Positions 1,799 through 38,691 of a stretch of DNA of 39,553 nucleotides are shown here, piece by piece. The notes beneath the pieces are model-generated. The model made no database searches. It was not told the DNA's origin and worked only from the letters and a program-made list of their open reading frames with translations. Position numbers and translations under genes: made by a program. The stretch comes from Lentisphaerota bacterium (GTDB lineage Bacteria > Verrucomicrobiota > Kiritimatiellia > RFP12 > JAAYLN01): NCBI GenBank assembly GCA_012521875.1, contig JAAYLN010000252.1, positions 1-39,553 on the forward strand. Reading direction: 5' to 3'. Within the stretch, counting starts at the first letter, position 1, and each line of letters starts with the position of its first letter.

Positions 1799-1801
1799 TA
1801 A

Positions 1802-3160
1802 TCAGCGCGAGCGCGCCAGCGGCATGTGGGACGGCTCAGTGGTACACTGGCCGGGCTCGAGGTGGCGCAGGGTGGGCCCGACATAGACCTGGCGCGGGCG
1901 CTGCAGCTTGAAGCGCGGATCCTCGTGAGCCTCCTTCCAGTGGGCGATCCAACCGGGAAGGCGTCCCAGCGCGAACATGACGGTGAACATGTTCTTGGGA
2001 ATGCCCATGGCGCGCAGGATGATGCCGCTGTAGAAGTCGATGTTCGGATAGAGATTGCGGGAGATGAAAAACTCGTCCCGCAGCGCCAGATCCTCCATCT
2101 CGAGCGCGATATCCATGAGCGGATCCTGGATGTTCAGCGCCTTGAGGACGCGGTAGCAGGTCTCCTTGATGACCGTCGCGCGCGGGTCGTAGTGCTTGTA
2201 GACGCGGTGACCGAAGCCGTAGAGCAGATCCTTGCCCTTGGAGTTCTTGATCTGCTCGATGCGCTGCCGCGGCGTGATACCGCGCGCCATCATCTCCTCG
2301 AGCATCTCGATGGCCATCTGGTTGGCACCGCCGTGCAGCGGCCCCCAGAGCGCGCAGATGCCGGCCGCGACGGCGGCGTAGAGATTCACTCGCGCGCTGC
2401 CGACCAGCCGCACGGCGGCCGTAGAGCAGTTCTGCTCGTGGTCGGCATGCAGGATCAGGAGCACGCTGAGCGCCTGGACAACCACCGGATCAATCTCGTA
2501 CGGATGCACCGGCGAGTAGAACATCATGTTCAGGAAGTTGGCGCAATAGCTCAGATCGTGCCGCGGGTAGACAAAGGGCTCGCCGATCGACTTCTTGTAG
2601 GAGAAGGCCGCGATCGTGCGCAGTTTCGAGAGCAGGCGTGTCGCCGCGATGTTGATCGCCTCCTCGCCCTCATCGCCCCTGTGCTGCGAGAGTTCGGGGT
2701 AGAAGGCCGAGAGCGAGACCACCATGGCCGAGAGAATCGCCATCGGGTGGGCGCGGTCGGGAAAGCGGTAGAAGAAGTGGCGCATGTCCTCGTGGAACAT
2801 CGAGTGACGGTTCAGCAGCAGCGACCATTCCTCGCGCTCCTGCGCATCCGGCATCTTGCCGTTGATCAGCAGGTAGGCCACCTCGACAAAGCGCGACTTG
2901 GCGGCCAGTTCCTCGACCGGATAACCGCGGTAGCGCAGAATGCCCTTCTCGCCATCCAGATAGGTGATGGTGCTGGCGCAAGAGCCGGTGTTCTGGTAGC
3001 CGTAGTCAAGCGTCACGGCCCCGGACTGCTTGCGCAGGGTCGAGATATCGATGGCCTTCTCGCCTTCGCTGCCCTCGAAGACGGGCAGGGAGTAGTTCTT
3101 GTCCCCAAGGGCCAGGGTGGCGGTACCTTGGGGGGTCATGAGGGCACTGGGTTCTTTCAC
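1802..3160 (-). CDS. gltA: Citrate synthase
   Basis: Condenses acetyl-CoA with oxaloacetate to citrate, the entry step of the TCA cycle, in the cytoplasm. The 452-aa protein is close to the type II (E. coli GltA-like) length of about 430. The catalytic triad can be read: His276 in GPLHGGANQ, a second His at about 318 in GFGHRVYKHYDPRA, and Asp375 in NIDFYSG. The motif LHADHEQN at about 238 is also conserved. The GTG at 3160 overlaps the TGA of the upstream aminotransferase as GTGA, indicating translational coupling. An ATG at 3139 (MTPQGTATL) is an alternative start; neither has a convincing Shine-Dalgarno sequence. With the aminotransferase upstream, the operon sits at the oxaloacetate/2-oxoglutarate/amino acid branch point (inference). 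The 3' end converges on the GH38-MFS gene with a 3-nt gap and no room for a separate terminator. Confidence 0.96.
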   Translation of the reverse strand: MKEPSALMTPQGTATLALGDKNYSLPVFEGSEGEKAIDISTLRKQSGAVTLDYGYQNTGSCASTITYLDGEKGILRYRGYPVEELAAKSRFVEVAYLLINGKMPDAQEREEWSLLLNRHSMFHEDMRHFFYRFPDRAHPMAILSAMVVSLSAFYPELSQHRGDEGEEAINIAATRLLSKLRTIAAFSYKKSIGEPFVYPRHDLSYCANFLNMMFYSPVHPYEIDPVVVQALSVLLILHADHEQNCSTAAVRLVGSARVNLYAAVAAGICALWGPLHGGANQMAIEMLEEMMARGITPRQRIEQIKNSKGKDLLYGFGHRVYKHYDPRATVIKETCYRVLKALNIQDPLMDIALEMEDLALRDEFFISRNLYPNIDFYSGIILRAMGIPKNMFTVMFALGRLPGWIAHWKEAHEDPRFKLQRPRQVYVGPTLRHLEPGQCTTEPSHMPLARSR

Positions 3161-7722: not shown

Positions 7723-10700
7723 ATGAACGGAAGCTGTTCCAAGCCGCCGCTCCGCAGGCGCTTTCCGTGCCTGCTGGCGCTGTTGGCGCTGGCCCTGCCG
7801 GGCGGGCGGGCGCTGGCCGAGCCGTCTCGCTGTTCGCTCGGCATTCCCGGCGCCCCCGTGCTCCGCGTCACGGCCAACGCCGCCGGGAATACCTGGCTCT
7901 CGGCCAACGACGCCTATCCCGCGATGGCGCTGGGCGTGGCGTCCATGGACGCCGTCTCGACGCTCGAACCAGAGATGATTGGCCAGGAGGTTGTGCGGCT
8001 GCAGGCTGCCGAGGCGGGCTTTGCCGTCGAGCGCAGCAGGCCCATGTACTGGATCGCCGACCGCATCATGGCGCCGGATCACGTCGACTGGGACGCGACG
8101 TTTGCCCGGTTCCACGCTGAAAACCCCAACCCGGGCAGCTTCTTCTTCGATACCGCCACCCCCGCCCTCTATGCAGCCGCCGGCGGCCCGGCCCACTTCA
8201 CCTGGGTGCTGACGGACGGGCAGACGGAAGCGCATGTCTACATCATCGGTGCAGCCGCGCAGGGGCGTCCGCGGCGGATCTTCTGGACCGACTGGCCCTA
8301 CCAGGCGCCGCCCGTCAACCTCGCCGGCACGTTCGTCAGGTTCTACGGCAACCCCGAGATCCTCACGCCGCGCTATGGTGTCGTCACCAACGTCACCGGC
8401 GGCATCTCGCAGGTGATTACCAACAAGATCACACGCGGTCTCTACCTGGACCAGACCACGAAGCAGCTCTTCGCGGCCGGCGAGCTCTCCGGACAGGTGC
8501 TGATGGTCTACTACGACTCCGGCACCTTCGAGACCCCGCTGCTGGTGCAGGTCGTCGAGGTGGCGCGGCCGCAGGTCATTCCCATGGCCGGCCGCATCGG
8601 CGAACCCCTGCGTCCGCACGGCGGCGGCTACAATACCGACGGCCTCCGCGCGCTGCCGACCGTGGTGCTCGAGACGGACAACCGCGGCCCCTACCTCTAT
8701 CAGCACAAGGGCGAGTACTCCTACAGTCCCAAGAATGGCAACGTCTATCCGCTGCGGCCGACCGTCGGGGCGCGCTGGAACGCCGAGGTGTACTGGATGG
8801 AGACGGACGAGCTCAAGGTTCAATGGCCCTTCGAGGTCTGCCAGTACGCGTGTGACTGGCCGGACGATGCGCCGGTCTTGGTCCGCGGGACGCTGGCCGG
8901 CACGGACGGCGCCGTCGATTACGGCCGCCCGCTCTTCATTCCGGACGATTACAACGCGACCCTGATGGCCTACCAGGAGCCCGAGGGCCATGCCCGCGCC
9001 GTGACGGCCGATGGCACCTTCGTTACGCAGGGGGCGGGATGGTCGTTGCTGCGGCTCTCCGCCGAGGACAATGTGTGGTTCCTCCCCATCCGTTCCGTTT
9101 TGCGCGACGATCCGGCCCGCTTCACGCTTGCACCCTCGGAGCTTGAGGTCGGCAGCGAGGCGACGCTGCGTGGCGGCTCGGTCGCCGGTGTCGCGCCGGG
9201 CTGGTCCGCGCCGACGGTCGATCCTTCCCTGCCGGGCTATCTCTACCTGGCCGCGTCCGGCACGTCCTATCATCCGAGCCTCTACCACGAGCCGCAACCG
9301 GACGGCACGGACACGGGTGCCGAAGAGAAGCTACCCTCCGCCATCTTCCCCGTGACGGTGGATGGGAAACCATTAGAAGTCTGGTGGTGCACCCAGTTCC
9401 GGGCGGATGACATGCCCACGTCCATCGCGGTTCCGTCGCTGCCGCAGGTCTACACCCCGGTGTGGCCGACGGTCTCGCAGGTGCCGCAGATCGTCCTTGC
9501 CAGCCAGCAGGGGAGCGCCAACGAAAACCTTTACGAACAGGGCGGCGCGCTGGTTTTCGACTCGACCAACGCCTGCATGGAGCTGCCCGCCCGCGCCTAC
9601 TTCACCGATGACGGCGGCGCCATCCATTTCTGGACGCGCGCCTGCGATGCCGATCCCGGCTACGGCCAGCTCATCGACCTTCGCGGCGACGGCGACCTGC
9701 CGTTTTCGCTGACCATCGCCGCGAGCATCTCCGCGGGGGCTCCCGCCACGGAGACGTTCCGGGTGACACTCGCAGGGTGGCATGATCCCGAGACGCCAAC
9801 CAACGTGGTCGTGGAGGCATCCCGCGATGCGCTCGACACCTTCCAATGGGTGAGCGTCGGGCTGACGCGCGACGGCACGACCTTCCGCCTCTATCTCGAC
9901 GGGCAACAGGTCCTCGCGCGCGACCTCCCCACCTTTGCCATCTGCGACTTCGACGCCTGCCTGGCCGATGGTTTTCTCGGCGCCGCCCGCGGGGCGGTGG
10001 CGCGCCCGAACCGTGAAATCACGGAGGTCTCTTGCTGGAACCAACCGTTCGACGCCGCGGCGTTCCGGACGCTCGCCTACCACAGGCCCGCCGTCACCGC
10101 CTCCGGCTTGACGGGGTATTTCGCCTTCGAAGACGGACGCGATCTCTCCGTGGTGCCGGGCTCGAATCTGCGCACCGCGTACGAGCGCATCCACAACCAC
10201 CCCTGCGTCTGCCGCGACGTGCTGCTGCGCACCCCGGGCGCCCCCGCCCTGGGGACCGGCATCATCGACGCCGACGACACGCCGACCATCTACGCGCAGA
10301 CCGATCCAGGCGCCATCGGCTACAACCCCAACGAAGAGCATGCCTCTATCCGCGTCGGCAGCGGCGGCCACGTGGCGTGGGCTCTGCGCTGCGATCTCAA
10401 CACCGCGAGCAGTTCACGCCCCGCCGTCCTGGTGCAATACGAGAAAGATGGCCGGGCGCACATGCAATACTTCGCGGTCGTCCTGACCAACGCCGTCTAT
10501 CCGGAACTGGCGGCGGACTGCGTCGCCGGCCAGCAGCTTCCCGGACCGCATCCGCTCGACTACCTCGACGATCCGTGGCTCGACGAAACCTACTGGGACC
10601 TGCCGGCAGGCCAGGCCGAACCCGCCGGATTCCGTGACCGCAAGAAGCAGATCTGGGCCCGCTGCGCCGGCATCCTGCCGATCCACATGTACTACCGCAT

Positions 10701-13700
10701 GCAGGAAGGGTTCTGGTTCCCGAGCCTGCCCGCGAACCAGCAGCCTGCCGTCGGCACGCCCATTCCCTGGCTCTCGCAGGTGGTCGGCCAGACGCCCAAT
10801 CCCAACGCCGCCGCCCCGGTCACCTGGACCTGGCGCGCCACCTGGCCGAAGGAGGTGCCCGAGATGGGTATCGGCCAGACGCTCACGCTGCCCACCGGCG
10901 GCCTGCCCGAGGTCTGGAACGCCAAGAGTATGGCCGTCGTCTATCCCTCCTCCACGAATGGTAGCGATACCGTCCTACTCTACGACCCGACCGTGGCGCA
11001 AGCGGTCGCCTTCGACCCGAACCTCCTCGCCGCCCTCGGCCTCAAGACCGGCCCCAATGAAAAGCTCCTGAGCCGCCAGGGGAAGTACTGGTTCCAGGAT
11101 ATCCCGCCCGCCATCAGCAGTCGCGTCTATGTCGACCCCGTCGCCGGCAGCCTCGTCTGCATCGGCGTCAAGGAAGAGAACCCCGGCGGCGTCGAACTGC
11201 TGCAGGTGAATGTCCTCGCCGACGCCGAGCGCGCGACGCTCCGCGATCTGGTGGATCCATCGCTGCGGGATGGAGCCGCCTGGAATGCGTGGTGTACGGC
11301 CGTTGTCTCCCTGGCCACCTCGCCGGTGGTGCCGACAAGCCACCATTTTGACAAGAACACCGATCTGCGGATCGACTACCGCCCGGTCGATCACTACGCG
11401 CTCACCGCCATGGGCGCGACCAACTACGTGGTGCTGATCGAGAACGACGCCACCAACCGGGCCACCGGCGTGAATCCCGGTGACCCCATCTCGATGCAGG
11501 TATTGCGCGTGGCGCCACGCTACTACACCGGCCGCATCGTGACCCGCGAAGATCCGGTCAACCTGCTGTCGCAGCAACTCTCGGTGCTCTACGAGGAGTC
11601 CTTCGCGGGCAGGGCCGACGCCTACACCTTCCAATGGAAAAAGGCCTCACCCAACGTCGACGGCACCATTCCCGAGGACTACGACACCGCCTACCAGGCG
11701 CGCTTCCCCGACTCCAACGGCCTCACCCGTTTCGTCATCGGCGGCCAGGGCGACACGCTCGCCAACATGGTCAACACCTACTACATCGTCCGCTACCGCG
11801 CCGCCGGCCCATCCAGCCCCGCCTATGCCGTGATGGGCGACCAGTGGAGCGATTGGTGCGCACCGCCCGCGCTGGCCGAGGGCTGGGTGCAGCGCGTGCT
11901 CAACAACATCACCCCCTTCACCCAGCGCATGCGGGACCTCTACGAGAACGAGGCCGAGGACGCGGTCTCCATGATTCGGCAGGCCGGCGCTCCCTACGAG
12001 GGCGACGTGGCCCTCAACCAGGACAACCTCAGCAACGTCGGACTGATCCAGCTTTATCACACGATCCTCAACAAGGCCGAAACCATAAGCCTGCTGCAGC
12101 GCACCAACGATGGCGAGGCCAACAAGCAACTCCTCCTCGCCGTCGAGCGTCTGGCCGACCTCTACACCATTCTGGGCGACGAGGCCTACACAGACGCCAT
12201 GAACCCGACCATCTCCATCGGCGCCAACTTCGGGGCGCTCGAGGGCGGCCTCGGCCTCGGCTACGACTACGGTGCACTCGCCAGCGGACTCTTCTGCTTC
12301 GACAACCAGCTTCCCAGCCTGCTGGAGGAGGAGCTGGCGCTCCTGCGCGGACGTTCCGGCGCCAATGCGCCCGGCACCACCATCGGCCCCTACTACAACC
12401 GCCTCGTCTGGAACTTCACCCGCGGCATCACCGCCGGCGAGGTCGCCTACGCCGTGAACTACAACATCAGCGGCGAGAAGACCGCCACGATCGACTACCA
12501 GCAGGCCGCCGCGGCTTTCCCGCAGGGCCACGGCGACGCCTACGGGCACTACCTCTCCGCGCTGGCCGGCTACTACCGCCTGCTGCACAACCCCTATTTC
12601 AGCTGGGGCACACCCGCCATGGGCGAGATGGTCGTCGCCGACAGCGTGGTGAACGTCGACTACTATGACGAGTCCACCTTTGCCAAGGCTGCCGCCAAGG
12701 TGGCCAGGACCGCGGTCGACATCGTCGACCGCACCGGACGCAAGGCGTGGAAGGAGGCGGAGACCGGCGCAGGCTACCTCGACAGCGACTCCGCGCGCGC
12801 GTTCGGGTACGGCGAGTGGGCCTCCCGCGGCGGCTTCGGCGCCCTCTGCCACTGGGTCGTCGCCAACTCGCTCCTGCCCGAGGCTGGCGGCGTCACCAAC
12901 ACCTACCGCATGCAGTTCACCGGCGGCGATTCGATGCTGACCGGCACACTGCCCGCCAACGCCACAACAACCAACGCGGCCGACGCCTGGACGCTGGAGT
13001 TCCGCCTGCAGGCCGATGCCGACGCGCCGCGTACTGGTGACGCCTCCCTGATCGTGTGGATGGGCGAGTCACGCGAACAGACACTCACCTTGAGCCTCGC
13101 GGCGGACGGCATCCTCCGTGCCGGCCTCTACACCAACGCACTGGCGATCGTCGACGCCGACGGCACGACCGAGACCAACTACGTCCTCGATGCCGCCTGG
13201 ACCTTCGACACCGCGCCTGTGGCGCTCGCCCCCGGCCGGTCCTACCTCGCGGCGCTCAGCCACCGCGGCGGCACGCAGTCCATCGATCTACGCGTCTTCG
13301 ACGCCAACGGCGCAAATATCGCCTCATGCACGCACGCGATCGACGCCATGCCCGACCTGACGGGCGGCTACGTCACCGCCGGCGTGAACTTCGAAGGGAC
13401 GCTTGCCAACTTCCGCTTCTGGGCGGATGATCGCTCCGACGAGGCGCTCGTGGCCGGCTGGGAGACGGTCGCACCTGCCGCGCAGAGGCTCGTTTCATCC
13501 CTGCCCATGACTGCCGCATCCGAGGACGACACGACGCTCATCGACGCGGTCTCCGGCCTGGCCTGGAGTCCCTATGACGTGTTCTGGCGCGTGGTTCAGG
13601 CGTCGGCCGCACAGACGACGCTCGATGACCGTGGCTTGATGCGCATCGACCGCGGCACGGTGACGGAACTCAGCGAGCTCGCCGCGTGCGTCCACCAGCT

Positions 13701-16122
13701 CCAGGTCAAGACCGATGCGATCGACGCCGGCCTCAACCCGCTGGGTCTTGCCGATGGCGCCATTCCGTTCGACCTCTCGCCGCTCGGCACGGGCGAGGCA
13801 GGCGCAACCCACTTCGAGCAGATCCGCGACCGTGCGCGCGTCGCGCTGCAGAACGCCGCCACCATCCTGGCCCAGGCGCAGGAGAACGGCTCGCGCCTGC
13901 GGCAGATCGAAGACGCGCGCGCCGGCTATGCCGACCAGCTCGACACCATGGAAGCCGCCTACAAGAGCGAACTCATCGCCCTCTTCGGTTATCCCTACTC
14001 CGGTGACATCGGCCCCTCCGGCACCTATGCGCAGGGCTACGACGGCCCCGACCTGATCCACTACATGTGGATGGACACCGCGCCCTACGGACTCACCGAC
14101 GTGGAGGATACCAAGAGCGTCGCCACCAAGACCTACCGCCTCGCCTCCTTTCTCGAGCGCCAGGCCTTCGCCATGTGGATCAACGCCTTTGCCTCCGAGA
14201 GCGCCTCCACCACGTTCACCCTGAACTTCTCCGCCAGCGGTCTGGCGCAGAAACCGGCAGCCGTCACCGGTGCCCGGCGCGCGCCGGGTGAGATCCAGCA
14301 AGCCTACGGGAACTACCTGCAGGTCTACGCCAAGGTCAAGCGCGCCCTCTACCTCTACGAGCAACGGACGGCTGACCTGGAAACCAAGATCGGTTCCGCC
14401 GCACTCCAACGTACCATCGCGGAGGTCAAGGCCGTTGTCCTCGAAGTCGTCGCCATATTCAACAAGGTGTCGGCCGCCAAGCGCCATCTGCTCAACATAT
14501 CGCTCAACTCGATCAACTACGGACTCGACATGATCGGGATGTTCAGCGAGGTTGTCGACGACAGCATGCCGGAAATCACCGGCGCCGGCCTGACTGTCAA
14601 CGTCGATCCCTCAGCCATCGCCAGTGCCGCGCTCGCCCCCGCCGAATCGGCCACGCGCAGCTCGCTTCTCGCCAGCAGGCTGCTGGTCCAGAACGCGCTG
14701 GTTGACGACATTGGCAAGGGATGGGGCGACTTCATCAAGGATACGATCAGCATGGCCGCCGGCTACATGGCGGACATGGACGCCGCCTATCAGCCCGTTT
14801 TCGATGCCTTCTACCTGCAGTTGGCAGCCCGCGACGAACTCGAATCGGCCTGGGGCGAGATGCTCGCCGCGCAGGCCGCCTACGAGACGGTCGTCGCCAA
14901 GGCACAGCGCCTACTCGACTCGCGCGAACTCGAGCGCCAGCAGGCCGTGGTTGCCCTGACTAAGCTGCGCTACCACGACATGCTCTTCCGCCAGAGCCGC
15001 AACGAGTCGCTCGTCCGCTACTCGGCGGCCTTCGACCTCGCACAGAAGTACGTCTACCTCACGGCCAAGGCCTACGATTACGAGACCGGACTGCTCGCGT
15101 CCGACCCCGCGGCTGGCGACGCCTTCCTCAAGCAGGTCATCGGCGCCCGCGCGCTGGGCGTCTTCGACGCGGCCGGCAACCCGGTCGTCGGCGGCAGTGT
15201 CGGCGACCCCGGCCTCGCCGACATCATGGCCCGCATGGAGGGCAACTGGCTTGTCCTGAAGACGCGTCTCGGCATCAACAACCCGCAGGCCTATGCCACC
15301 TGGTTCTCGCTGCGCCAGGAGCTCTTCCGCATCCTGCCCGGACCGCAGGGCGACAGCGCCTGGCAGACCGAACTGGCCAAGTACTGGGTCGAGGACCTCC
15401 TCACACTGCCCGAATACCGGCGCTACTGTCAGCCCTTCCAGGCTATTAACGGCCTCCAGGCCAAGGAGCCCGGTCTCGTGATCCCCTTCTCCTCCGTGAT
15501 CGACTTTGCCCGCAACTTCTTCGGCAACGACCTGGCCGGCGAGGATAGCGCCCTTGACTCGACCTACTTCGCGACCAAGATCGCCGCGGCCGGTGTCTTC
15601 TTCGACGGCTACAACGAGAAGCTCAACGGCTACACCGGGACTGCGCCCTTCGCGCTGACCCCGACCGTCTACCTGATCCCCATTGGCGACGACCGCATGC
15701 GCGCTCCGGGACTGGCCGACGGCACGGCGCTCTCCTTCCGCGTCGTCGACCAGGTGATTCCGCTGCCCTATACCGTCGGCGGCACGCACCTCAACGATCC
15801 CGACTGGATACCACTCTACGATGGCTATACCGGCGGTGTCGATCTCGCCGCGCGCATCCGCAAGTACCCCTCCTTCCGCGCCTACTTCGGCGCCGGCGGT
15901 CCGGACAATGGGCAACTGGATTGCCCACGCCTCGTCGGACGCAGCGCCTGGAACACCCGCTGGCTCCTGATCATACCGGCAGGCACGCTCAACGCCAACC
16001 GCGATGACGCGCTGCAAACCTTCATCCGCGGCAAGGATGCCAACCGTGACGGCATCACGGATCTCTCCGGGGTAACCGATATCCGCCTCGGCCTCAGGAC
16101 CTACTCCCACTCGGGGAACTAG
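7723..16122 (+). CDS. Giant exported multidomain protein with two LamG-like domains and long helical regions (gene C)
   Basis: The protein has 2799 aa. A signal peptide (1-32) ends GGRALA. Residues about 33-600 are beta-rich with no recognised domain. Residues about 605-790 form a LamG/concanavalin-A-like domain (GGALVFDSTNACMELPARAY, GAIHFWTR, WVSVGLTRDGTTFRLYLDGQ). Residues about 1390-1720 are mostly helical (LLEEELALLRGR). A second LamG-like domain covers about 1730-1915 (DAWTLEFRLQADAD, LANFRFWADD). Residues about 2035-2415 are strongly helical, with coiled-coil-like stretches. The C-terminal 240 residues are beta-rich and carry a calcium-loop-like DANRDGITD at about 2774. Overlapping long frames on the other strand are codon-bias shadows. 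There are 12 nt to gene B and 2 nt to gene D, so co-translation is likely. I infer a large extracellular scaffold or adhesin. Tc-toxin-like proteins also combine lectin and helical modules, but I see no diagnostic Tc motif. Confidence 0.88.
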   Translation: MNGSCSKPPLRRRFPCLLALLALALPGGRALAEPSRCSLGIPGAPVLRVTANAAGNTWLSANDAYPAMALGVASMDAVSTLEPEMIGQEVVRLQAAEAGFAVERSRPMYWIADRIMAPDHVDWDATFARFHAENPNPGSFFFDTATPALYAAAGGPAHFTWVLTDGQTEAHVYIIGAAAQGRPRRIFWTDWPYQAPPVNLAGTFVRFYGNPEILTPRYGVVTNVTGGISQVITNKITRGLYLDQTTKQLFAAGELSGQVLMVYYDSGTFETPLLVQVVEVARPQVIPMAGRIGEPLRPHGGGYNTDGLRALPTVVLETDNRGPYLYQHKGEYSYSPKNGNVYPLRPTVGARWNAEVYWMETDELKVQWPFEVCQYACDWPDDAPVLVRGTLAGTDGAVDYGRPLFIPDDYNATLMAYQEPEGHARAVTADGTFVTQGAGWSLLRLSAEDNVWFLPIRSVLRDDPARFTLAPSELEVGSEATLRGGSVAGVAPGWSAPTVDPSLPGYLYLAASGTSYHPSLYHEPQPDGTDTGAEEKLPSAIFPVTVDGKPLEVWWCTQFRADDMPTSIAVPSLPQVYTPVWPTVSQVPQIVLASQQGSANENLYEQGGALVFDSTNACMELPARAYFTDDGGAIHFWTRACDADPGYGQLIDLRGDGDLPFSLTIAASISAGAPATETFRVTLAGWHDPETPTNVVVEASRDALDTFQWVSVGLTRDGTTFRLYLDGQQVLARDLPTFAICDFDACLADGFLGAARGAVARPNREITEVSCWNQPFDAAAFRTLAYHRPAVTASGLTGYFAFEDGRDLSVVPGSNLRTAYERIHNHPCVCRDVLLRTPGAPALGTGIIDADDTPTIYAQTDPGAIGYNPNEEHASIRVGSGGHVAWALRCDLNTASSSRPAVLVQYEKDGRAHMQYFAVVLTNAVYPELAADCVAGQQLPGPHPLDYLDDPWLDETYWDLPAGQAEPAGFRDRKKQIWARCAGILPIHMYYRMQEGFWFPSLPANQQPAVGTPIPWLSQVVGQTPNPNAAAPVTWTWRATWPKEVPEMGIGQTLTLPTGGLPEVWNAKSMAVVYPSSTNGSDTVLLYDPTVAQAVAFDPNLLAALGLKTGPNEKLLSRQGKYWFQDIPPAISSRVYVDPVAGSLVCIGVKEENPGGVELLQVNVLADAERATLRDLVDPSLRDGAAWNAWCTAVVSLATSPVVPTSHHFDKNTDLRIDYRPVDHYALTAMGATNYVVLIENDATNRATGVNPGDPISMQVLRVAPRYYTGRIVTREDPVNLLSQQLSVLYEESFAGRADAYTFQWKKASPNVDGTIPEDYDTAYQARFPDSNGLTRFVIGGQGDTLANMVNTYYIVRYRAAGPSSPAYAVMGDQWSDWCAPPALAEGWVQRVLNNITPFTQRMRDLYENEAEDAVSMIRQAGAPYEGDVALNQDNLSNVGLIQLYHTILNKAETISLLQRTNDGEANKQLLLAVERLADLYTILGDEAYTDAMNPTISIGANFGALEGGLGLGYDYGALASGLFCFDNQLPSLLEEELALLRGRSGANAPGTTIGPYYNRLVWNFTRGITAGEVAYAVNYNISGEKTATIDYQQAAAAFPQGHGDAYGHYLSALAGYYRLLHNPYFSWGTPAMGEMVVADSVVNVDYYDESTFAKAAAKVARTAVDIVDRTGRKAWKEAETGAGYLDSDSARAFGYGEWASRGGFGALCHWVVANSLLPEAGGVTNTYRMQFTGGDSMLTGTLPANATTTNAADAWTLEFRLQADADAPRTGDASLIVWMGESREQTLTLSLAADGILRAGLYTNALAIVDADGTTETNYVLDAAWTFDTAPVALAPGRSYLAALSHRGGTQSIDLRVFDANGANIASCTHAIDAMPDLTGGYVTAGVNFEGTLANFRFWADDRSDEALVAGWETVAPAAQRLVSSLPMTAASEDDTTLIDAVSGLAWSPYDVFWRVVQASAAQTTLDDRGLMRIDRGTVTELSELAACVHQLQVKTDAIDAGLNPLGLADGAIPFDLSPLGTGEAGATHFEQIRDRARVALQNAATILAQAQENGSRLRQIEDARAGYADQLDTMEAAYKSELIALFGYPYSGDIGPSGTYAQGYDGPDLIHYMWMDTAPYGLTDVEDTKSVATKTYRLASFLERQAFAMWINAFASESASTTFTLNFSASGLAQKPAAVTGARRAPGEIQQAYGNYLQVYAKVKRALYLYEQRTADLETKIGSAALQRTIAEVKAVVLEVVAIFNKVSAAKRHLLNISLNSINYGLDMIGMFSEVVDDSMPEITGAGLTVNVDPSAIASAALAPAESATRSSLLASRLLVQNALVDDIGKGWGDFIKDTISMAAGYMADMDAAYQPVFDAFYLQLAARDELESAWGEMLAAQAAYETVVAKAQRLLDSRELERQQAVVALTKLRYHDMLFRQSRNESLVRYSAAFDLAQKYVYLTAKAYDYETGLLASDPAAGDAFLKQVIGARALGVFDAAGNPVVGGSVGDPGLADIMARMEGNWLVLKTRLGINNPQAYATWFSLRQELFRILPGPQGDSAWQTELAKYWVEDLLTLPEYRRYCQPFQAINGLQAKEPGLVIPFSSVIDFARNFFGNDLAGEDSALDSTYFATKIAAAGVFFDGYNEKLNGYTGTAPFALTPTVYLIPIGDDRMRAPGLADGTALSFRVVDQVIPLPYTVGGTHLNDPDWIPLYDGYTGGVDLAARIRKYPSFRAYFGAGGPDNGQLDCPRLVGRSAWNTRWLLIIPAGTLNANRDDALQTFIRGKDANRDGITDLSGVTDIRLGLRTYSHSGN

Positions 16123-23055: not shown

Positions 23056-23300
23056 CCGGGCAGTGCAGCGCCCCGCGTGTGCGGCTCGCCGGGACGGCTC
23101 GCCCTACCTGCGCTGGCGCGCTTCTGCAGAAGCTGCCCCAATGTGGCGCGGACATTCCTGTCTGCGCGCGTCGCAGAAGCTGCCCCAATGTGGCGCGGAC
23201 ATTCCTGTCTGCGCGCGTCGCAGAAGCTGCCCCAATGTGGCGCGGACATTCCTGTCTGCGCGCGTCGCAGAGGGCAGACAGGAATGTCTGCCCCACACTA
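23056..23300. repeat. Hairpin-pair repeat with an exact 47-nt triplication
   Basis: After GTGTGCGGCTCGCCGG and a GACGGCTCGCCCTACC stretch, a 47-nt unit beginning CAGAAGCTGCCCCAATGTGG occurs three times without change at 23127, 23174 and 23221. Each unit contains GCGGACA-TTCC-TGTCTGC. After the third unit follows GGCAGACA-GGAA-TGTCTGCC (about 23272-23292), complementary to the first arm, so the two hairpins can also pair with each other. Other copies are at 27255, 30965 and 31332. Confidence 0.9.
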
Positions 23301-30161: not shown

Positions 30162-30731
30162 ACTACGTACACCTCGGTATGCTCCCATATCACGACCAAC
30201 ACCGTCTTCCTCGGCAAGGGTATCCGGCTCGCTGGCGCGGGTATCGGCAGCACCATCCTCAAACCAGGCGCCGACAATATGCGGCTGTTGAGTTTCAACC
30301 ACGAGGATGCCGTGGCGGAAAAGATGACCCTGACAGGTGTGTACTTCGACACATCGGTCTACATCCATGGTGCCGTTGCCTCCTTCGCCTCGCGCGGGGG
30401 AACCATCTCAGAGTGCCGCATCACCGGCAACTCCAGAGCCTCGAAGAACTACTGCAGCGGCGTGGTGGCCAACATGAGCGCGGGTCTGATCTCCCGTTGT
30501 ATTATTGACAACAACCTTGAGCCCGGGGACAACGACTATCAGCATTCCATGGTGCGTTTGGTAGATGGAGGAACTGTCGAGAACACCCTCTTCTATAACA
30601 ACACCACAAAGAATTTCGGCACCATCACCTTGCAGGGTCCCGGGATCGTCCGCAACTGCACGTTTGTCGGCAACACGAACCGCGAGGCCCAGGTTTACAT
30701 TGCGTCCGACAAGGCCTCGGTCATCAACTGT
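30162..30731 (+). pseudogene. Beta-helix (parallel right-handed) protein fragment, both ends lost
   Basis: An open frame without start codon begins after a stop at 30159. It reads HITTNTVFLGKGIRLAGAGI, then STILKPGADNMRLLSF, EKMTLTGVYF, GTISECRITGNSRASK, GLISRCIIDNN, GTVENTLFYNN, GPGIVRNCTFVGNTN and ASVINC: typical rungs of pectin-lyase-like or PMP-like repeats. The N-terminus is missing at the AraC junction. At 30733 the frame enters the 367-bp repeat, which adds about 57 unrelated residues. No signal peptide or anchor is left. The intact relative is the frameshifted gene at 36494-38691. Confidence 0.72.
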
Positions 30732-30732
30732 G

Positions 30733-31395
30733 CAGGCGCGGCGGGCGGGGCGGTTCGGTACAGACGCAGCCTGGTGAACGCGAGGCCGCAACGCTGGAGC
30801 ACGCCGTCCCCGGCGGTAACGTTCTCCACTCATGCGCCTTCCAACTTACCGCGGAGACCGCGGGCTCCAGTGCGCATCGGAAGCGAACGCAGAGAACGGA
30901 ACTGACGACAAGTAGCGACAGGCTCGAGAGAGGGCGAATGCGTCTGCGACAAAGACAGTCCCACCAGAGTGGCGCGGACATTCCTGTCTGCGCGGGTATG
31001 CGCGGGCAGACAGGAATGTCTGCCCCACACTACCACGCTCCATCGCTGCGGCCAGCCGGGACGGCGTCGCCCTTCGAGTAGCGGTACCGTGAGCTTGTAC
31101 AGGCGCGGCGGGCGGGGCGGTTCGGTACAGACGCAGCCTGGTGGACGCGAGGCCGCAACGCTGGAGCACGCCGTCCCCGGCGGTAACGTTCTCCACTCAT
31201 GCGCCTTCCAACTTACAGCGGAGACCGCGGGCTCCAGAGCGCATCGGAAGCGAACGCGGAGAACGGAACTGTCGACAAGTAGCGACAGGATCGAGAGAGG
31301 GCGAATGCGTCTGCGACAAAGGCAGTCACACCAGAGTGGCGCGGACATTCCTGTCTGCGCGGGTATGCGCGGGCAGACAGGAATGTCTGCCCCAG
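30733..31395. repeat. 367-bp tandem duplication containing hairpin pairs
   Basis: Unit 1 starts at 30733 and unit 2 at 31100 with CAGGCGCGGCGGGCGGGGCG. The 367-nt offset holds without change from the start up to the end of the hairpin pair (about 31028 and 31395), with scattered substitutions (for example GTGAACG versus GTGGACG). Each unit holds one ATTCCTGTCTGC-type hairpin pair (about 30975 and 31342). Unit 2 then jumps to AGAGCGCATCGGAAGCG, a copy of its own interior (31236). A third partial copy is at 39297-39329. No gene is present. Confidence 0.9.
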
Positions 31396-31491: not shown

Positions 31492-34371
31492 CTACTTGGC
31501 GGCGGGTGGCGCGGGTAGCGCGGGCTGGGTTTTACCAGCATAGTCGGGATCGAGCAGCACAATGCGCCGCAGGTCGGTGAAGCGCGGCAGTGAGTTGGTG
31601 TCCGCGCCGGGTTCGAGGACTACCCGCATGCCGGTCTCGAGATTAACTCTGCCCAGTCCGACAATCTGCCACGACTCGTCGCCGCGCGAGCCGGTAACGT
31701 GACGCAGGTTGTCGCGCTGCAGCGCACCGCATTCGGTGCAGGTGGCATCGTCCGTGACATACGCGACGGCGGCCTCCTGATCGAGCGGGATCGAGGCGCC
31801 GCTGCGGAGGTCGAGCAGGAGTTCCCACTCACCGGCGAGATCGGCTGGAACACTCCACGAGATCGAGTGGACAGGCGCGTTGGTATCGAAGCCGGCCAGC
31901 CGCGCATACTTGAAGTTGTCGATGTTATCGGTCTCGATCCGGACGTTGCGATCCTTGGCGAACTTGTCGCAAGCCACGACCACGGCACGTGCCTTGGCCT
32001 TGGCGTCCTTCGGGGCGGCGGCACCGTTCTCGATCAGCACGGGATCAACGAGACGCACCTCGCGCACATCGCACCAGTCGCTCGGGTGGAGGATGCCGGG
32101 CATCACCCAGATGCGGCTGCCCTTGTAGAGACGGCGCTTGCCGACGCAGATGGTCTTCCAGGCCGTATCGCCCTTGCGGCCCTGAATGGCCTGGTTGGCA
32201 ATCTCCTGTCCGCCCGCGGCCTTGTAGTCGTTGACGTACCACGGCTGGTAGATGCCCATGTAGCTGACGGCGGGATCGACATCAACGCTCGCGGCGGTGC
32301 GGACGGTCGCGAAGACGTACCACCAGCCGGCATCGTCATCCTCGATCGAGTAGCCGATTTCAGCGAAGTCCGGATTCATCCAAACGCTCTCGGTCTCGCC
32401 GCCGAGCTTGACCTGGAAACGGCAGTATTCCGTACCGTCGGGATCCTTGCCGCGCGTCATGCGCTTGCCGCCGGTGAGCCTGGCGGCGGGAGCCACGATC
32501 ACCGAGGAGCGGCGCGGATATACCGTGGGCTCGGCAGGCGACTCGAAGGAGTGCCTGAAGATGTTCTCGAAGGTGCCCAGCATGCGCCCTTCACCAAGCT
32601 CGCCGTAGGCACCGCGGGAAGTCTCGCCCTCGACGAGCGATTTCCACCGGTACAGCATCTCCTCACGCGGCATGAGCTTGTAGCGCAGACGCTGGGCGGG
32701 CTCGATCATGTCGTTGTAGCGCTGCAGGGCCATGTCGTAGCCGGCGATCCGCGCGCGGCGCAGCATGACCGCCTCGGGACCGCCGCGGCCGGCATTCCAG
32801 GCGTTGTCGAGGGCGCGCAGCATCTTGACGCAGTCGTCGCCGGTGAGGTAGTGCGACGTATCGGCGACGTAGCAGCCCAGCCACGTCCAGCGCTGACGCA
32901 GGCGCGCATGCTCGAGCAGGCCGAGGTACTCCTGGATGCCCTTGGCGCCGCGTCCGTAGGCGGCATTGACGTAGGTGGCGGTAAGCTCATCGACATCAAG
33001 GTCGGGATTCCACAGGAGCTTGGCGAAGAGCCAGAGGTTCAGCGCGGCCATGTCGCCGATGCTTGTCGAGAATTGCGTCTGGCAGAAGACGCCTTGTACC
33101 CCGCTCTCCTTGTAGAACTTCGCCGTCTGACCAAAGATGCGGTGGTTCGGGAACGGGATGCAGAAGTCGCTGAAGTTGGCGAGGTAGTCCCAGACGTAGA
33201 GACCGTGCTTCGCGCTGGACATGCGGGCGAGACGTCCGAAGAAGATGTCGGAGCGCTCGTTGCAGTCCGCCGGAAGCCCGTGGTTGCGCCATAGCTCGGC
33301 CACACCGGCACCGACGTTGGGCGAGAACTTGAGTTCCCCGGTGATGGGCAGGCTATCGCCGAAGCCTAAATAGCCGAGGAAATTGAAGCGCACGTGCGGA
33401 TACCTGGCGGCGAAATGGTCGCCGACCTTGTTGGCAAGGACGACACACTGGAGCGCCGGATGGGTCGAGCCATCCGGATCGGCATAGTGCTGCGCCAGCG
33501 CCAGGCACTTGTCGCACTCGCAGTAGGTGTAGGCGTCGTCGATGCCCACGGAGATTTCGCGGATGGTGGGATCCTTGGCGAGTTCGGCGTCGATCTCGCT
33601 GTAGAGCTGATTGAGCATGCCCTCGTTGGAGACGCAGACCCAGTGGAAGTTGCGCTTCCGGGTGGCCGCGACGTAGGCGTACCAGTCGGGGTGCGTCTCG
33701 GCGAACTTCTTGCGCGGAACGTAGTGGGTGCAGACGGTCTGGCCGATGTTCTCGCCGCGGGTCGGGTCGAACCACTTCCAGCGCCGATCCCCCCGGCTCG
33801 GCACGATGCGCAGGTTCATGGCGTGGTCGAAGTGGCCCTGGAACTGCACCTCGCAACCGGCCTCGCGCCAGGTCATGCAGGGTGCATCGATCTTGGCGTA
33901 GTCGCCGGGCAGGGAGAGTTCGGACTGCCGCGGCGCATAGGTGTAGTCGTGGGCGCAGAAGACAGCGCCGAGCGTCTCGGCAAGATCGACTGCCGCATAG
34001 GCTGTACCGATGGCACCGTCGCCCGTCACCTCGAGGGTGTTGGCGTCCTTGACGCGCACACAGGTCTCCTGCCGCTTGGTGGCCTTGTAGGGCGCGCCGA
34101 CGTGGATCGTCCTGTAGCCCGCGACGGGCTTGTCCGCCACCATGAAGGTTGCGCCCGAGAGACGCCCCAGATTCTTGGCAAGCTGCTGCGCCGCATAGCC
34201 GATGCCGTTGGTATCGCCGCCATGGGCCACGATGACCGCCTGCGCGCGTCCGCCACTGGCGAGGACAAAGGGCTGGGGCGCGGCCTGAACGGACATGGGG
34301 GCCAAGGCGGCAAAAAGAAGTGAAAAGGCGAGAATAACGCCGGTACGGCTGGTGTTACAAGTGTCGTGCAT
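31492..34371 (-). CDS. Exported DUF4838 protein (glycosidase-like)
   Basis: The start is the ATG at 34371, with AGGA about 10 nt upstream and a signal peptide (1-30, TGVILAFSLLFAALAPMSVQA); the open frame upstream to 34500 reads through a two-hairpin repeat. The protein has 959 aa. Residues about 45-140 resemble the N-terminal domain found before alpha-glucuronidase-type catalytic domains (GIGYAAQQLAKNLGRLSGA). Residues about 165-460 fit DUF4838: CVSNEGM, ISVGIDDAYTYCECDKC with its CxCxxC, and VFCQTQFSTSIGDMAALNLWLFAKLLWNP. The rest is beta-rich, two related modules (about 620-760 and 800-930) ending ALPAPPAAK. DUF4838 proteins are abundant in polysaccharide-degrading PVC and Bacteroidetes; enzyme activity is only inferred. 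It is the last gene of the minus-strand locus. Confidence 0.85.
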   Translation of the reverse strand: MHDTCNTSRTGVILAFSLLFAALAPMSVQAAPQPFVLASGGRAQAVIVAHGGDTNGIGYAAQQLAKNLGRLSGATFMVADKPVAGYRTIHVGAPYKATKRQETCVRVKDANTLEVTGDGAIGTAYAAVDLAETLGAVFCAHDYTYAPRQSELSLPGDYAKIDAPCMTWREAGCEVQFQGHFDHAMNLRIVPSRGDRRWKWFDPTRGENIGQTVCTHYVPRKKFAETHPDWYAYVAATRKRNFHWVCVSNEGMLNQLYSEIDAELAKDPTIREISVGIDDAYTYCECDKCLALAQHYADPDGSTHPALQCVVLANKVGDHFAARYPHVRFNFLGYLGFGDSLPITGELKFSPNVGAGVAELWRNHGLPADCNERSDIFFGRLARMSSAKHGLYVWDYLANFSDFCIPFPNHRIFGQTAKFYKESGVQGVFCQTQFSTSIGDMAALNLWLFAKLLWNPDLDVDELTATYVNAAYGRGAKGIQEYLGLLEHARLRQRWTWLGCYVADTSHYLTGDDCVKMLRALDNAWNAGRGGPEAVMLRRARIAGYDMALQRYNDMIEPAQRLRYKLMPREEMLYRWKSLVEGETSRGAYGELGEGRMLGTFENIFRHSFESPAEPTVYPRRSSVIVAPAARLTGGKRMTRGKDPDGTEYCRFQVKLGGETESVWMNPDFAEIGYSIEDDDAGWWYVFATVRTAASVDVDPAVSYMGIYQPWYVNDYKAAGGQEIANQAIQGRKGDTAWKTICVGKRRLYKGSRIWVMPGILHPSDWCDVREVRLVDPVLIENGAAAPKDAKAKARAVVVACDKFAKDRNVRIETDNIDNFKYARLAGFDTNAPVHSISWSVPADLAGEWELLLDLRSGASIPLDQEAAVAYVTDDATCTECGALQRDNLRHVTGSRGDESWQIVGLGRVNLETGMRVVLEPGADTNSLPRFTDLRRIVLLDPDYAGKTQPALPAPPAAK

Positions 34372-34400
34372 GTCTGGTGGTTCCTGTGCAAGCTTTGCGT

Positions 34401-34496
34401 GAGGCTCTTGCCCCTCGTGGCAAGGGCGTTCCGCCCTTGAAACACGGGCAGGATGCCCGTGCCACGTGTGCCCGGCCAGGGGCTTGCAAGAGTCTA
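34401..34496. repeat. Two-hairpin dispersed repeat, copy 3
   Basis: Outer arms GAGGCTCTTGCCCCT and AGGGGCTTGCAAGAGTCT, inner CTCGTGGCAAGGGCG-TTC-CGCCCTTG and CACGGGCA-GGA-TGCCCGTG, then GCCACGTG. It occupies most of the 154-nt gap before the DUF4838 start, just as copies 1 and 2 sit before other exported genes. In this copy the first arm carries CAAGGGCG/CGCCCTTG with compensatory changes relative to CATGGGCG/CGCCCATG. Confidence 0.9.
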
Positions 34497-34525
34497 GCAT
34501 GATTTATGCCATTGGAGACGGCTCA

Positions 34526-36475
34526 TCATGGGAGTTCACCGAAGCCGAGGGTGGCGAGACCGCACTCCTTGGCGGTGGCGAGAATGCGCTCAAGCCATTC
34601 GGTCTTCATGTGGATCCACTTGGCGTCGTCCGCGATATCATGCGCGGTGATGACGAGCACCTCGCGACGCTCGGCGGCACGGCGGACACAGGCAAGGATG
34701 TCCTCGATATCGGTATGGTAGGCCTCGCCCACGAGCAGCGTGTCGAGCCGCTTGCGCGTGGCCAGTTCCGTGGCCGGGAAGAAGGCGCGATCGTCGGTCG
34801 CCAGAGGCTTGCGATCCGCCTGCATCCTGCCTTCGGGGTCGTAGGGCGTGAGGTTTTTAAGACAGCCGCGGATGCGCTTGAACCCCTGCTTGAAGAAGAG
34901 CTCGTCCGACTCCTCGCTGCGGCGGCAGTTGGGATAGGCGAAGCCGCTGATCTTGACGTAGCACTTGTTGCAGGTGTCGAGCTGGGGCCAGACCTCCTCA
35001 TCCCAGTAGACTTGGGCGCCCTTGGCCGCGATCTCCTCGTCGGCATTGGCATGGTGCAGGCCGTGCAGGCCGATCGAGTGACCCTTGCCGGCCAGTGTCT
35101 TCATCGCACGCACAACGGCGTTGTCGATCTGGCCCGAGACAAAGAAGGTCGCGTGCGCATCGTACTTTTCAAAGAGCGGAATCGCGGCCAGCCAGCCATC
35201 GAAGTTGCGGTCGTCAAAGGTGAGCAGGAGTGCGCCCGGCACCACCGCATCAGGCGATGGCGTGCAGTTTTCGGTGCGCACATTGACCACCTTGCCGCGC
35301 GTCTCCAGAAAAACATTCTGGCGATCGGGCCAGTGCGAGAACCAGTGCATGTTCTGACGCACCTTCACATGCCCGAGCAGCTTGAAGGAGCAATCCTTGA
35401 AGAGGATGTTCTCGGGCCAGCTATTGTCGTTGCCGATGATGGAGCTTGGCAGCAGCGCCTCGAAGCGGCAGCGTTCGAAGAGGATGTTCTTGACACGGGC
35501 ATCGCCCGCAGGCGTTGCAACGTGGACGGGGCGCTCGCTTTCGAGCGAGACACAATCGCGGACGGCCACATCCTCGATATAGACGTTCTTGCCGGCGTTG
35601 ATCCAGGCGGGCGTGAAGCCGAAGCCGATGGCCGACTCGTGGAAGCGGCAGTTGTCGAACTCCACATCGCGGATTGTGCCGGTACCGACACCGAAACGGA
35701 CACCGAAGCAGCAGCTTGAGACATCGCAGTCGCGGATGCGGATATGCTCGCAGGGATGCTGATCGGCATGCAGACGGCAGCTTGCGCGGATCGCGAAGCC
35801 GTCATCCCCCGTGAGGAGCCGGCATCGCTCGATCTCGACATTGCGCGTGCAGTCGATGCTGAAGCCGTCGGAGTTGGCGATCGTGCGGTCGGCATCAATC
35901 GTCACACCGCGCGCGGTAAAGCCATCGCAGCAGCGGATATGCGCCGTCCAGCCGGTCGTGTTCTTGAACGTCACATCCTCGAAGCGGATATTCCTCGAGA
36001 GGAAGAAGGCCAGCATCGGGCCGGGACGGAACCAGCCCCGGTCGATCGGGTGCAGCTTGAGACCGTACTTGTACCACGGGAAGCTCGAGTCGCGGTCACA
36101 TTCGCCGAAGAAGGCCGGTCCGTTGGCGTCAATGACGCCCTCGCCCGTGATGGCCGCATCCTCGACCTTGTAGCCGAGGATCAGGTGTGCGCCACTCCAC
36201 TCCTCACCCACGCTATGGAAGTTCTCGGGGAAGGCGTCGTCCGGGTTGTAGTCCTGCTCACGGACGCTGCCAAGCAGCGTCGCGCCCCGTTCGAGGTGCA
36301 GCTCGACGCGGCTCTTCATCCAGATCGTGCCGGTGGTCCATGTGCCCGCAGGCACGACAACACGTCCCCCACCTGCCGCCTCGGCGGCATCAACGGCCTT
36401 CTGGATAGCCTCGGTGTTGATAAAGTCCGTCTCGGCCTTCGCGCCGAAATCGGTAATGAGAAAGTTGGTCATCAT
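34526..36475 (-). CDS. GH28-like beta-helix fused to a polysaccharide deacetylase (CE4/NodB) domain
   Basis: 649 aa. Residues 5 to about 400 are a parallel beta-helix of the GH28 polygalacturonase type: FGAKAETDFINTEAIQKAVD, GGGRVVVPAGTW, ILGYKVEDAAITGEGVIDANG, NSDGFSID and TGDDGFAI, with catalytic aspartates in the usual places (D203, D224, D225). The later GHG and RIK signatures are not visible, so activity is uncertain. Residues 415-649 form a NodB-like deacetylase: LLLTFDD (D421/D422), HATFFVSGQ, IGLHGLHHAN with H471 and H475 in the H-x3-H metal position. There is no signal peptide; MMTNF is preceded by AGGAG at 8 nt. The gene follows the beta-helix gene by 18 nt, so they are probably co-transcribed. 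I infer debranching plus hydrolysis of one acetylated polysaccharide. Confidence 0.85.
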   Translation of the reverse strand: MMTNFLITDFGAKAETDFINTEAIQKAVDAAEAAGGGRVVVPAGTWTTGTIWMKSRVELHLERGATLLGSVREQDYNPDDAFPENFHSVGEEWSGAHLILGYKVEDAAITGEGVIDANGPAFFGECDRDSSFPWYKYGLKLHPIDRGWFRPGPMLAFFLSRNIRFEDVTFKNTTGWTAHIRCCDGFTARGVTIDADRTIANSDGFSIDCTRNVEIERCRLLTGDDGFAIRASCRLHADQHPCEHIRIRDCDVSSCCFGVRFGVGTGTIRDVEFDNCRFHESAIGFGFTPAWINAGKNVYIEDVAVRDCVSLESERPVHVATPAGDARVKNILFERCRFEALLPSSIIGNDNSWPENILFKDCSFKLLGHVKVRQNMHWFSHWPDRQNVFLETRGKVVNVRTENCTPSPDAVVPGALLLTFDDRNFDGWLAAIPLFEKYDAHATFFVSGQIDNAVVRAMKTLAGKGHSIGLHGLHHANADEEIAAKGAQVYWDEEVWPQLDTCNKCYVKISGFAYPNCRRSEESDELFFKQGFKRIRGCLKNLTPYDPEGRMQADRKPLATDDRAFFPATELATRKRLDTLLVGEAYHTDIEDILACVRRAAERREVLVITAHDIADDAKWIHMKTEWLERILATAKECGLATLGFGELP

Positions 36476-36493: not shown

Positions 36494-38691
36494 TCAGCGC
36501 ACACCAAAGATAGTTCCGAAGTTGCCGGGCCAGTATTCGTAGCAGCCGATATCAACAGGCCCGTTGAGGCGTAACCGCCCGGCGAGGTCAAGCGAGCTTT
36601 CGGTATAGCCGCGCTCCATACCGGCATCCCGTGCGGGCGAGCCGCTGCGGGGAGCGAACCAGGGTGCCCTGGGATCCAGGCCGGCGTTGTAGCGCGGGTC
36701 GCCGGTCTGGATGCTGTCCGTGAAGGCGGGCAAACCGGTCGTCGTGCCGTACAGGGCGTTCTTGTGCGTGCCACCGCCGATGTCACAGGGGAGATTGGCG
36801 TGGAAGAGGCAGTTGACCGTGGCGGTCTGGGTGGCGGCACGGTCAACGCACTGATTGCCCTCAAAGGTGCAGTTGTTGGCCGTGGCCGTCACGATGTAGC
36901 CTTTTGCCTGGAGCGCCTGATTGCTGATGACGAGGCAATCATTGATCGAAGCCCCGTATGCGGCGGCACCGGTACCGGTTGCGCGGTTGCCCTCGAAGAC
37001 GCAGCGGTAGGCAATTGCGTTATCAATGGCGCCGGCGTTGCCATTGGTGGCCACGTTGCCGATAAAAGCCGAGTCGCTAATGGAGCGTCCCGTATAGCTG
37101 CCGACCGCACCGCCCGTGGCGGCGCTGTTGTTGACGAAGCGACTGCCTACTACACTTATGGAACTCTGGCTTCCCAAAAGCGCACCGCCAGTGGCCGCTG
37201 CCCAGTTGTTGGAGAAGAAACTGTCAGAAACCGTGCCGTTGTAAAGGTAGACGGCGCCAGCCGTTTCTCCTGCCGAGTTGCCGATGAACTCGCAGCCGTA
37301 GGCGCTCATATAGCCGGCACCCCCCTGCCCCGTCGCCGAATTGTTTTCAAACCGGCAGTCGCTGCAAGCGGCGTCGCCTGCTCCACCGTAGTTGCCGTTC
37401 GTCGCGACGTTGCCGATGAAGACGCAATTGCGGATTGAACGTCCGTAAAAGCTGTCGACGGCACCTCCTGAAGCGGCACCGTTTGCAACGAAGATACTAT
37501 CCGAAACCGAGACGGAACTCTTGCTTCCGAGAACCGCCCCTGCGCTTGTCCTTGCCAGTTGTTGGAGAAGAGGCACACCGAAAGCGTACGGTTGTAAAGA
37601 TAGATGGCACCCGCAGATCCGTCCGACGAGTTGCCAATAAACTCACAGTCGTAAGCGTAGCCCTGATCGATAGCGCCAGAACGCGTAAATGCAATATTGT
37701 CCTGGAAGTGGCAGCGCGTGCTCGTGCCGCCGGAGAGGGCGCCGCCGGTTCCGGCGGAATTGCCGATGAAGGTGCAGTCGGTGGCACCGCCGGACGCCAG
37801 GACCGCCCCGCCGGTCTTGTTCGACGGGCAACTGTTGCCGATAAAGGTGCAGCCGTCAACGATGGCGTAGGAGACTGCACCGCCGCCACCCGCCGCGAAA
37901 TTGCCGACAAAGGTGCAGCGGCGCGCGGTGTATTGGCCGGAGTTGCCACCTGATGCATTGCCGTCGAAGGCACCACCGTAGGCGGTGGCGACATTGTTCG
38001 AGAAGAGGCTGTCGATGGCGTAGCAGTGGCTCGCGCCGCCACCGAGATAGGCGCAATTGCCGATGAAGGTGCAGTTGGTGATCAGGGATGTGTAGTAGCA
38101 GACACCGGTGCCGGTGCGGTTCGTGTTGGCGGCGAAGAGGCAGCCGTCCGCCGTGGCCGCGTAGACAATCGCGGCGTTGGTGCCGATGTTGCCCGCGACG
38201 ACGCAGTCCACAAGCTGGAGCTGATCCTTGTTCTTCGAATAGGCCGCGACGCCGGTAAAGTTGGCATTGCCGAAGAAGTTCGAAATCGTGAGCCCCCGGA
38301 TGCGGGAAACACAAGTTGCGTAGAAGGCGCGTGCGAAGAAGTCGGACCCGCCACCGGCACCGACGAGACGGACGGAGTCGCGCTGCCCGTTGGCGGAGCG
38401 GATGGTGAGATAGTTCCTGGACTTGATCTCGACGGCGTTCTTGCCGCTCCATTCGGTGCCCGAGAAGTCGTAGGTTCCGGGCAGCAGCAGGACCTCGTCG
38501 CAATTTGTCCAGGACGACCCCGGAACGGCCTTGTCCACGGCGGCCTGGATCGTGCCGGGGTCGCTCTCCGTGCAAGCGGCATCGGGCGTCCCAGTGGGCG
38601 AGGCGTAGTAGGTCGCGGCATACGCGCCGACAAGCGGCGCGAGGGCGAATGCCACAGCGAGAAGATAGTGCCGAATGCGATTCGTAGCCAT
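36494..38691 (-). pseudogene. Exported PMP-like beta-helix protein interrupted by a one-base frameshift
   Basis: From the ATG at 38691 (AGGA 8 nt upstream, signal peptide ending VGAYA-ATYYASPTGTP) the frame reads many beta-helix rungs of the polymorphic outer membrane protein type (CTFIGNCAYLGGGASHC, FSNNVATAYGGAFDGNASGG), then leaves frame after CLFSNNWQ. The next frame goes on at once with ARTSAGAVLGSKSSVSVSDS and runs to 36494. The homologous internal repeat at about 37145-37225 reads AACTGGGCA where this site reads AACTGGCA (plus coordinates 37555-37556), so a single G is missing. Corrected, the protein would be about 732 aa, ending RDAGMERG...DLAGRLRLNGPVDIGCYEY, the choice-of-anchor Q pattern. 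A sequencing error, a decayed gene or slippage are all possible. First gene of the polysaccharide locus. Confidence 0.9.

Follow-up and report, generated by a model that had tools for sequence, protein, structure and literature searches.

Organization of the fusion locus

The window, i.e. the whole 39,553-nt stretch of a Lentisphaerota bacterium contig analysed here, contains on the reverse strand a single uninterrupted frame of 649 aa (36475-34526), with AGGAG ahead of its ATG. In Pfam searches, residues 66-282 matched GH28 (PF00295; 51.6 bits, E-value 1e-13; cut-off, 22.9 bits) and residues 415-509 matched Polysacc_deac_1 (PF01522; 44.7 bits, 1.6e-11; cut-off, 23.1 bits), confirming the fusion of a GH28-like domain to a CE4-type deacetylase that had been claimed in a sequence-only reading of this DNA. 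In the AlphaFold model, the helix ends near residue 402 and the deacetylase starts at residue 415; the linker is as short as had been supposed, its length being about 12 residues rather than about 15. The gene and its features are as follows:

34526..36475, reverse strand: GH28-like/NodB(CE4)-like fusion protein, 649 aa (open frame, AGGAG, Pfam, same fusion in 21 genomes)
35267..36475, reverse strand: GH28-like right-handed beta-helix, residues 1 to about 403 (PF00295, AlphaFold, Foldseek)
35864..35875, reverse strand: NSDG motif, residues 201-204, with putative catalytic Asp203 (Asp203 invariant in 12/12 aligned fused proteins)
35801..35809, reverse strand: GDD motif, Gly223-Asp224-Asp225 (invariant in 12/12 aligned fused proteins)
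35705..35707, reverse strand: Phe257 at the His position of GHG (alignment with canonical GH28s in L176 and L177)
35612..35620, reverse strand: Gly286-Phe287-Thr288 at the RIK position (same alignment)
34529..35233, reverse strand: NodB/CE4-like deacetylase domain, residues about 415-649 (PF01522, AlphaFold, Foldseek)
35210..35221, reverse strand: TFDD, deacetylase motif 1, residues 419-422 (Phe-Asp-Asp invariant)
35051..35065, reverse strand: HGLHH, deacetylase motif 2, with His471 and His475 (both invariant)
34640..34642, reverse strand: His612, putative catalytic His of motif 5 (ITAHD; invariant)

The neighbours of the fusion gene in the window encode a DUF4838 protein, a PMP-like beta-helix protein, and ThuA, none of which points to pectin. 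The DUF4838 gene (31492-34500, reverse strand) lies downstream of the fusion, and its product, for which no solved relative was found, would include a stretch resembling a signal peptide were translation to start near position 34371. The beta-helix protein (36494-38691, reverse strand) bears PMP repeats of the Chlamydia type and what looks like a signal peptide; its coding sequence is divided between two frames that overlap (37306-38691 and 36494-37576), owing to a frameshift that results from either assembly error or decay. Elsewhere in the window, a protein of 2799 aa encoded at 7723-16122 (forward strand) appears to have a signal peptide and matches no Pfam family, three identical GC-rich 52-bp copies spaced by 47 bp are present at 23126-23271, and two direct copies of 299 bp (97% identical; 367 bp start to start) are present at 30729-31394. 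Rfam and tRNA scans of the entire window yielded no matches.

No signal peptide was found in the window copy, the N-terminus of which contains no strongly hydrophobic stretch, and a hidden upstream signal peptide was ruled out, since the stop codon of the preceding gene is located 18 nt before the start codon. The missing export signal reported in the sequence-only reading was thus verified. A simple hydropathy scan, as distinct from a trained predictor, indicated that the fused copies of three close relative groups (loci L034/L035/L069, L036, and L044) are also devoid of signal peptides, whereas thirteen other fused relatives begin with the kind of hydrophobic segment expected of a signal peptide. 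Intracellular action, as suggested in the earlier reading, therefore fits the former copies and that of the window but is not a trait of the family, and the mixed presence of signal stretches indicates that location has changed within the family. Three stand-alone deacetylases (L100, L103, and L104) were judged by eye to be lipoprotein-like.

Folds and active sites of the two domains

The AlphaFold model of the full protein, built with 33 aligned sequences, is a confident, two-domain model (pLDDT, 90.6). The N-terminal domain has the attributes of GH28 at the family level, namely a profile score above the cut-off, a parallel beta-helix fold, and three carboxylates (NxD and DD), and its best Foldseek match was the galacturonidase 5olp (1.3e-18), followed by exo-polygalacturonases. 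All 12 aligned fused proteins matched the NCBIfam models PglB, BT4146, BT4153, and BT4155, with best E-values of 3e-46, 9e-43, 3e-39, and 5e-42, respectively; the scores of the window protein (111.6-141.5 bits) are far under the cut-offs of these models (500-800), and that for PglB is slightly above those for the rhamnogalacturonidase models.

The NSDG (residues 201-204) and GDD (residues 223-225) motifs are retained, as had been read from the sequence, and Asp203, Asp224, and Asp225 were found in every fused and stand-alone relative examined. The GHG and RIK motifs are indeed missing: in the alignment with L176 and L177, two ordinary Bacteroidota proteins in which both motifs are intact, Phe257 takes the place of the GHG His, and Gly286 and Thr288 take those of the RIK Arg and Lys, respectively, so that the domain does not have the residues that define a polygalacturonase. 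The same His, Arg, and Lys are missing from all of the fused proteins; the stand-alone GH28s of L053, L054, and L055 have Arg but no Lys at the RIK position. Distant relatives in the phylum likewise lack GHG and RIK and contain RxG in that place, and these residues have been lost in nearly all wider Verrucomicrobiota relatives, fused or stand-alone. Because nearly all stand-alone relatives show this loss, it is a feature of a wider clade and is not tied to the fusion.

Since the uronate-binding Arg and Lys are lost, binding of galacturonate in the usual pose is disfavoured; in Aspergillus niger endopolygalacturonase II, the R256N and K258N replacements sharply reduce activity (PMC10059216). 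Arg260, which is invariant, is the foremost candidate for making contacts in place of the His/Arg/Lys set. The missing His is less telling than the earlier reading implied, as rhamnogalacturonases also lack the GHG His (PMC8952511).

When modelled alone, the deacetylase domain gave a pLDDT of 94.7 and a pTM of 0.91. Canonical CE4 enzymes are characterized by the motifs TFDD, H(S/T)xxH, and RxPY/F and by a catalytic His in motif 5. The retention of TFDD (residues 419-422) and HGLHH (471-475) noted earlier was confirmed, and Asp421, Asp422, His471, His475, and His612 are invariant among the aligned fused copies. Both His residues of motif 2 are present, with Gly in place of Ser/Thr, and the Arg of motif 3 is missing, the corresponding sequence being FAYPN. 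Both domains of the fusion are probably active. The deacetylase domain belongs to the PF01522/NodB-fold superfamily by profile match and fold; NodB chitooligosaccharide deacetylase proper was rejected, since the TIGR04243 profile gave 17.8 bits where 240 are required, and NodB itself is a poor name for the domain. In Foldseek, an acetylxylan esterase (7fbw; 2.6e-9) and the peptidoglycan deacetylase PdaC (3.0e-9) were nearly equal, and the fold search is therefore undecided between O- and N-deacetylation.

Distribution of the fusion and exchange of its domains

A profile of the fused protein, requiring both domains in one frame, identified the fused gene in 21 of the 162 genomes of the source organism's order, representing six genera in three families. 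These genomes contain 23 copies, a few of which are clipped at contig ends; one copy (L046 of genome G054; 283-2209, reverse strand) has an apparent frameshift near its start. The fused homologues are 49-65% identical (alignment of 12). No fused protein was found outside the order in a 388-genome sample of the phylum (best three candidates per genome scored), and a tblastn search of a plasmid collection detected no record spanning most of the fusion protein. Fused homologues were also located at 22 loci of public genome contigs, including metagenome-assembled genomes (MAGs) from yak, goat, and horse gut. The titles of the records bearing the fusion mostly refer to herbivore-gut MAGs called Kiritimatiellae or Verrucomicrobia; two contigs are titled 'Bacteroidales' (L095) and 'Planctomycetia' (L085), these placements being by title only.

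The sequence-only reading had allowed that the two domains might be separate genes in relatives and that the joining might be a read error at about position 35250. Stand-alone versions of both domains do exist, but a read error at the join was ruled out because the identical fusion is present in 21 genomes. A split form, with separate GH28 and deacetylase genes of this family side by side, was sought at 55 loci, none of which contained both. The fusion is therefore a genuine two-domain enzyme, and its conservation extends across gut bacteria from ruminants and horses.

Stand-alone GH28 relatives (L050, L051, L053, L054, and L088) and stand-alone deacetylases (L056, L059, L061, L063, and L066) were both identified, as were other domain combinations: a 1581-aa GH2-GH28-deacetylase three-enzyme fusion (L042; 5245-9987, forward strand) encoded beside GH106 and GH127 genes; a deacetylase behind a BD-FAE-like esterase (L057); tandem deacetylases in which the fusion-type domain follows a second polysaccharide deacetylase domain (L058, L065, and L067); and a GH28 relative with a GH5-type domain instead of the deacetylase (L049). 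Fused proteins form the basal branches of the GH28 tree, with weak basal support, and stand-alone proteins are nested, so that the 'alone' label must have switched at least 4-5 times. A similar mixture is seen in the deacetylase tree. The GH28 topology fits an old fusion followed by repeated losses of the deacetylase.

Proposed substrate and comparison with known enzymes

GH78 (L044 and L060), GH106 (L042 and L063), and Melibiase_2/alpha-galactosidase (GH27-type; L048 and L056) genes are located near relatives of the fusion, and a gene for the rhamnose transporter RhaT lies beside one (L041). The source genome itself contains, as candidates, two GH78 matches and two weaker GH106 matches above the cut-off; no GH88/105 was found in it, which speaks against a pectic substrate. 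There is no fixed gene cluster, each rhamnosidase family occurring once in a Pfam tally at 16 fused loci, and, among the 25 commonest families listed, no enrichment of pectin genes can be claimed from the comparison of 85 neighbours with 85 genes of arbitrary contigs, mostly of the same genomes. Since no family is frequent enough for enrichment, the context argument rests on individual loci.

In Bacteroides thetaiotaomicron, the BT GH28 enzymes whose profiles match the fused proteins degrade RG-I in concert with a rhamnosidase (GH106), a glucuronidase (GH2), a galactosidase (GH27), and an esterase that releases acetyl groups (PMC8002723). Because of these profile matches, because the same kinds of enzyme are found beside or fused to relatives, and because rhamnogalacturonases share the missing GHG His, we tentatively favour, with somewhat less than even confidence, a bifunctional enzyme for acetylated rhamnogalacturonan-type (pectic) oligosaccharides. 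The C-terminal domain would be a metal-dependent deacetylase (Asp421/422, His471, His475, and His612) that first removes an O-acetyl group blocking the glycosidic bond; the beta-helix would then cleave the unblocked oligosaccharide by GH28-type hydrolysis via Asp203, Asp224, and Asp225. GH28 enzymes use an inverting mechanism, which would apply here too, but in the absence of the His/Arg/Lys set by which polygalacturonases hold galacturonate. The enzyme would act on imported oligosaccharides in the cytoplasm of the source organism and would be exported in most relatives. The acetylated oligosaccharide proposed in the sequence-only reading is plausible, and the pectic affinities of the protein make an O-acetyl group at least as likely as an N-acetyl group. 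To our knowledge, CE4 enzymes act on N-acetyl-hexosamines or acetylxylan and not on pectin, which counts against a pectic substrate. A bolder and rather unlikely proposal is that GH28-type enzymes of one Verrucomicrobiota clade, which have RxGxG for GHG and lack RIK, have come to act on a new substrate and that their fusion partner in gut Kiritimatiellae, a divergent NodB/CE4 domain, is a pectin O-acetylesterase, an activity of which we know no example in CE4.

The main rival, itself unlikely, is that the substrate is an amino-sugar glycan with N-acetyl groups, or another glycan free of uronic acid, which would be N-deacetylated before the beta-helix cuts a neutral or amino-sugar linkage. This would suit the loss of the RIK Arg/Lys and GHG His throughout, the about equal closeness of the deacetylase to peptidoglycan deacetylases and acetylxylan esterase, and the annotation elsewhere of the neighbouring DUF4838 family as GH163 endo-beta-N-acetylglucosaminidase; the nearest GH28 profiles, however, are all galacturonic or rhamnogalacturonic, and rhamnose-related genes lie near several relatives. 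It is distinctly improbable that each domain attacks its own bond or substrate and that the two were joined for co-expression or co-localization only: each domain does occur alone, and the deacetylase is also joined to a BD-FAE-like esterase, a GH2-GH28 protein, and other deacetylases, but the basal position of the fused form, weakly supported as it is, and the repeated apparent deacetylase losses suggest an old and useful joining. Even less probably, the beta-helix would be a binding scaffold and the deacetylase alone catalytic, given that exo-polygalacturonases conserve eight residues, three of which are replaced here, and that much of the activity is lost in the R256N and K258N variants from A. 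niger (PMC10059216); a pure scaffold would have no need of Asp203, Asp224, and Asp225, which all relatives examined retain. That the join arose from misassembly or misreading, or that the gene is dying, is hardly credible, for although the neighbouring gene is broken into two frames, the fusion is an open frame that recurs in 21 genomes.

Acetyl groups impede gut microbes in degrading plant cell walls. A deacetylase and a GH28-type hydrolase in one conserved protein would show how the little-studied gut Kiritimatiellae deal with acetylated glycans, and the unusual active sites can be tested as a source of new specificities in either family.

The fusion is a variant of known enzyme families; no paper on combinations of GH28 with CE4, CE12, or CE8 was found in the literature searched, which excluded most subscription journals. 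The B. thetaiotaomicron rhamnogalacturonidases BT4146 and BT4153, the galacturonidase BT4155, and 5OLP share with it the GH28 beta-helix and the three catalytic carboxylates, but no deacetylase domain was noted in them. His is likewise missing from the GHG position of 5OLP in a pairwise alignment; this enzyme retains Arg and Lys near RIK, whereas the fusion clade does not. The exo-polygalacturonases 3JUR, 2UVE, and rumen IDSPGA28-16 have the fold and the NxD and DD motifs in common with the fusion but retain the His, Arg, and Lys that are replaced in it by Phe257, Gly286, and Thr288. The CE4 acetylxylan esterases and peptidoglycan deacetylases (7fbw, 2cc0, and 6h8l) share the NodB fold, FDD, the HxxxH metal motif, and the motif-5 His, while the fusion differs in the Gly of motif 2 and the missing Arg of motif 3, with an identity of only 14-18% in fold alignments. 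Like the fusion, Xyl-CE4 (7ax7), from a multidomain xylanase of a termite-gut metagenome, combines a CE4 domain with a plant-polysaccharide hydrolase in a gut community; its partner is a xylanase, whereas that in the fusion is a GH28 beta-helix.
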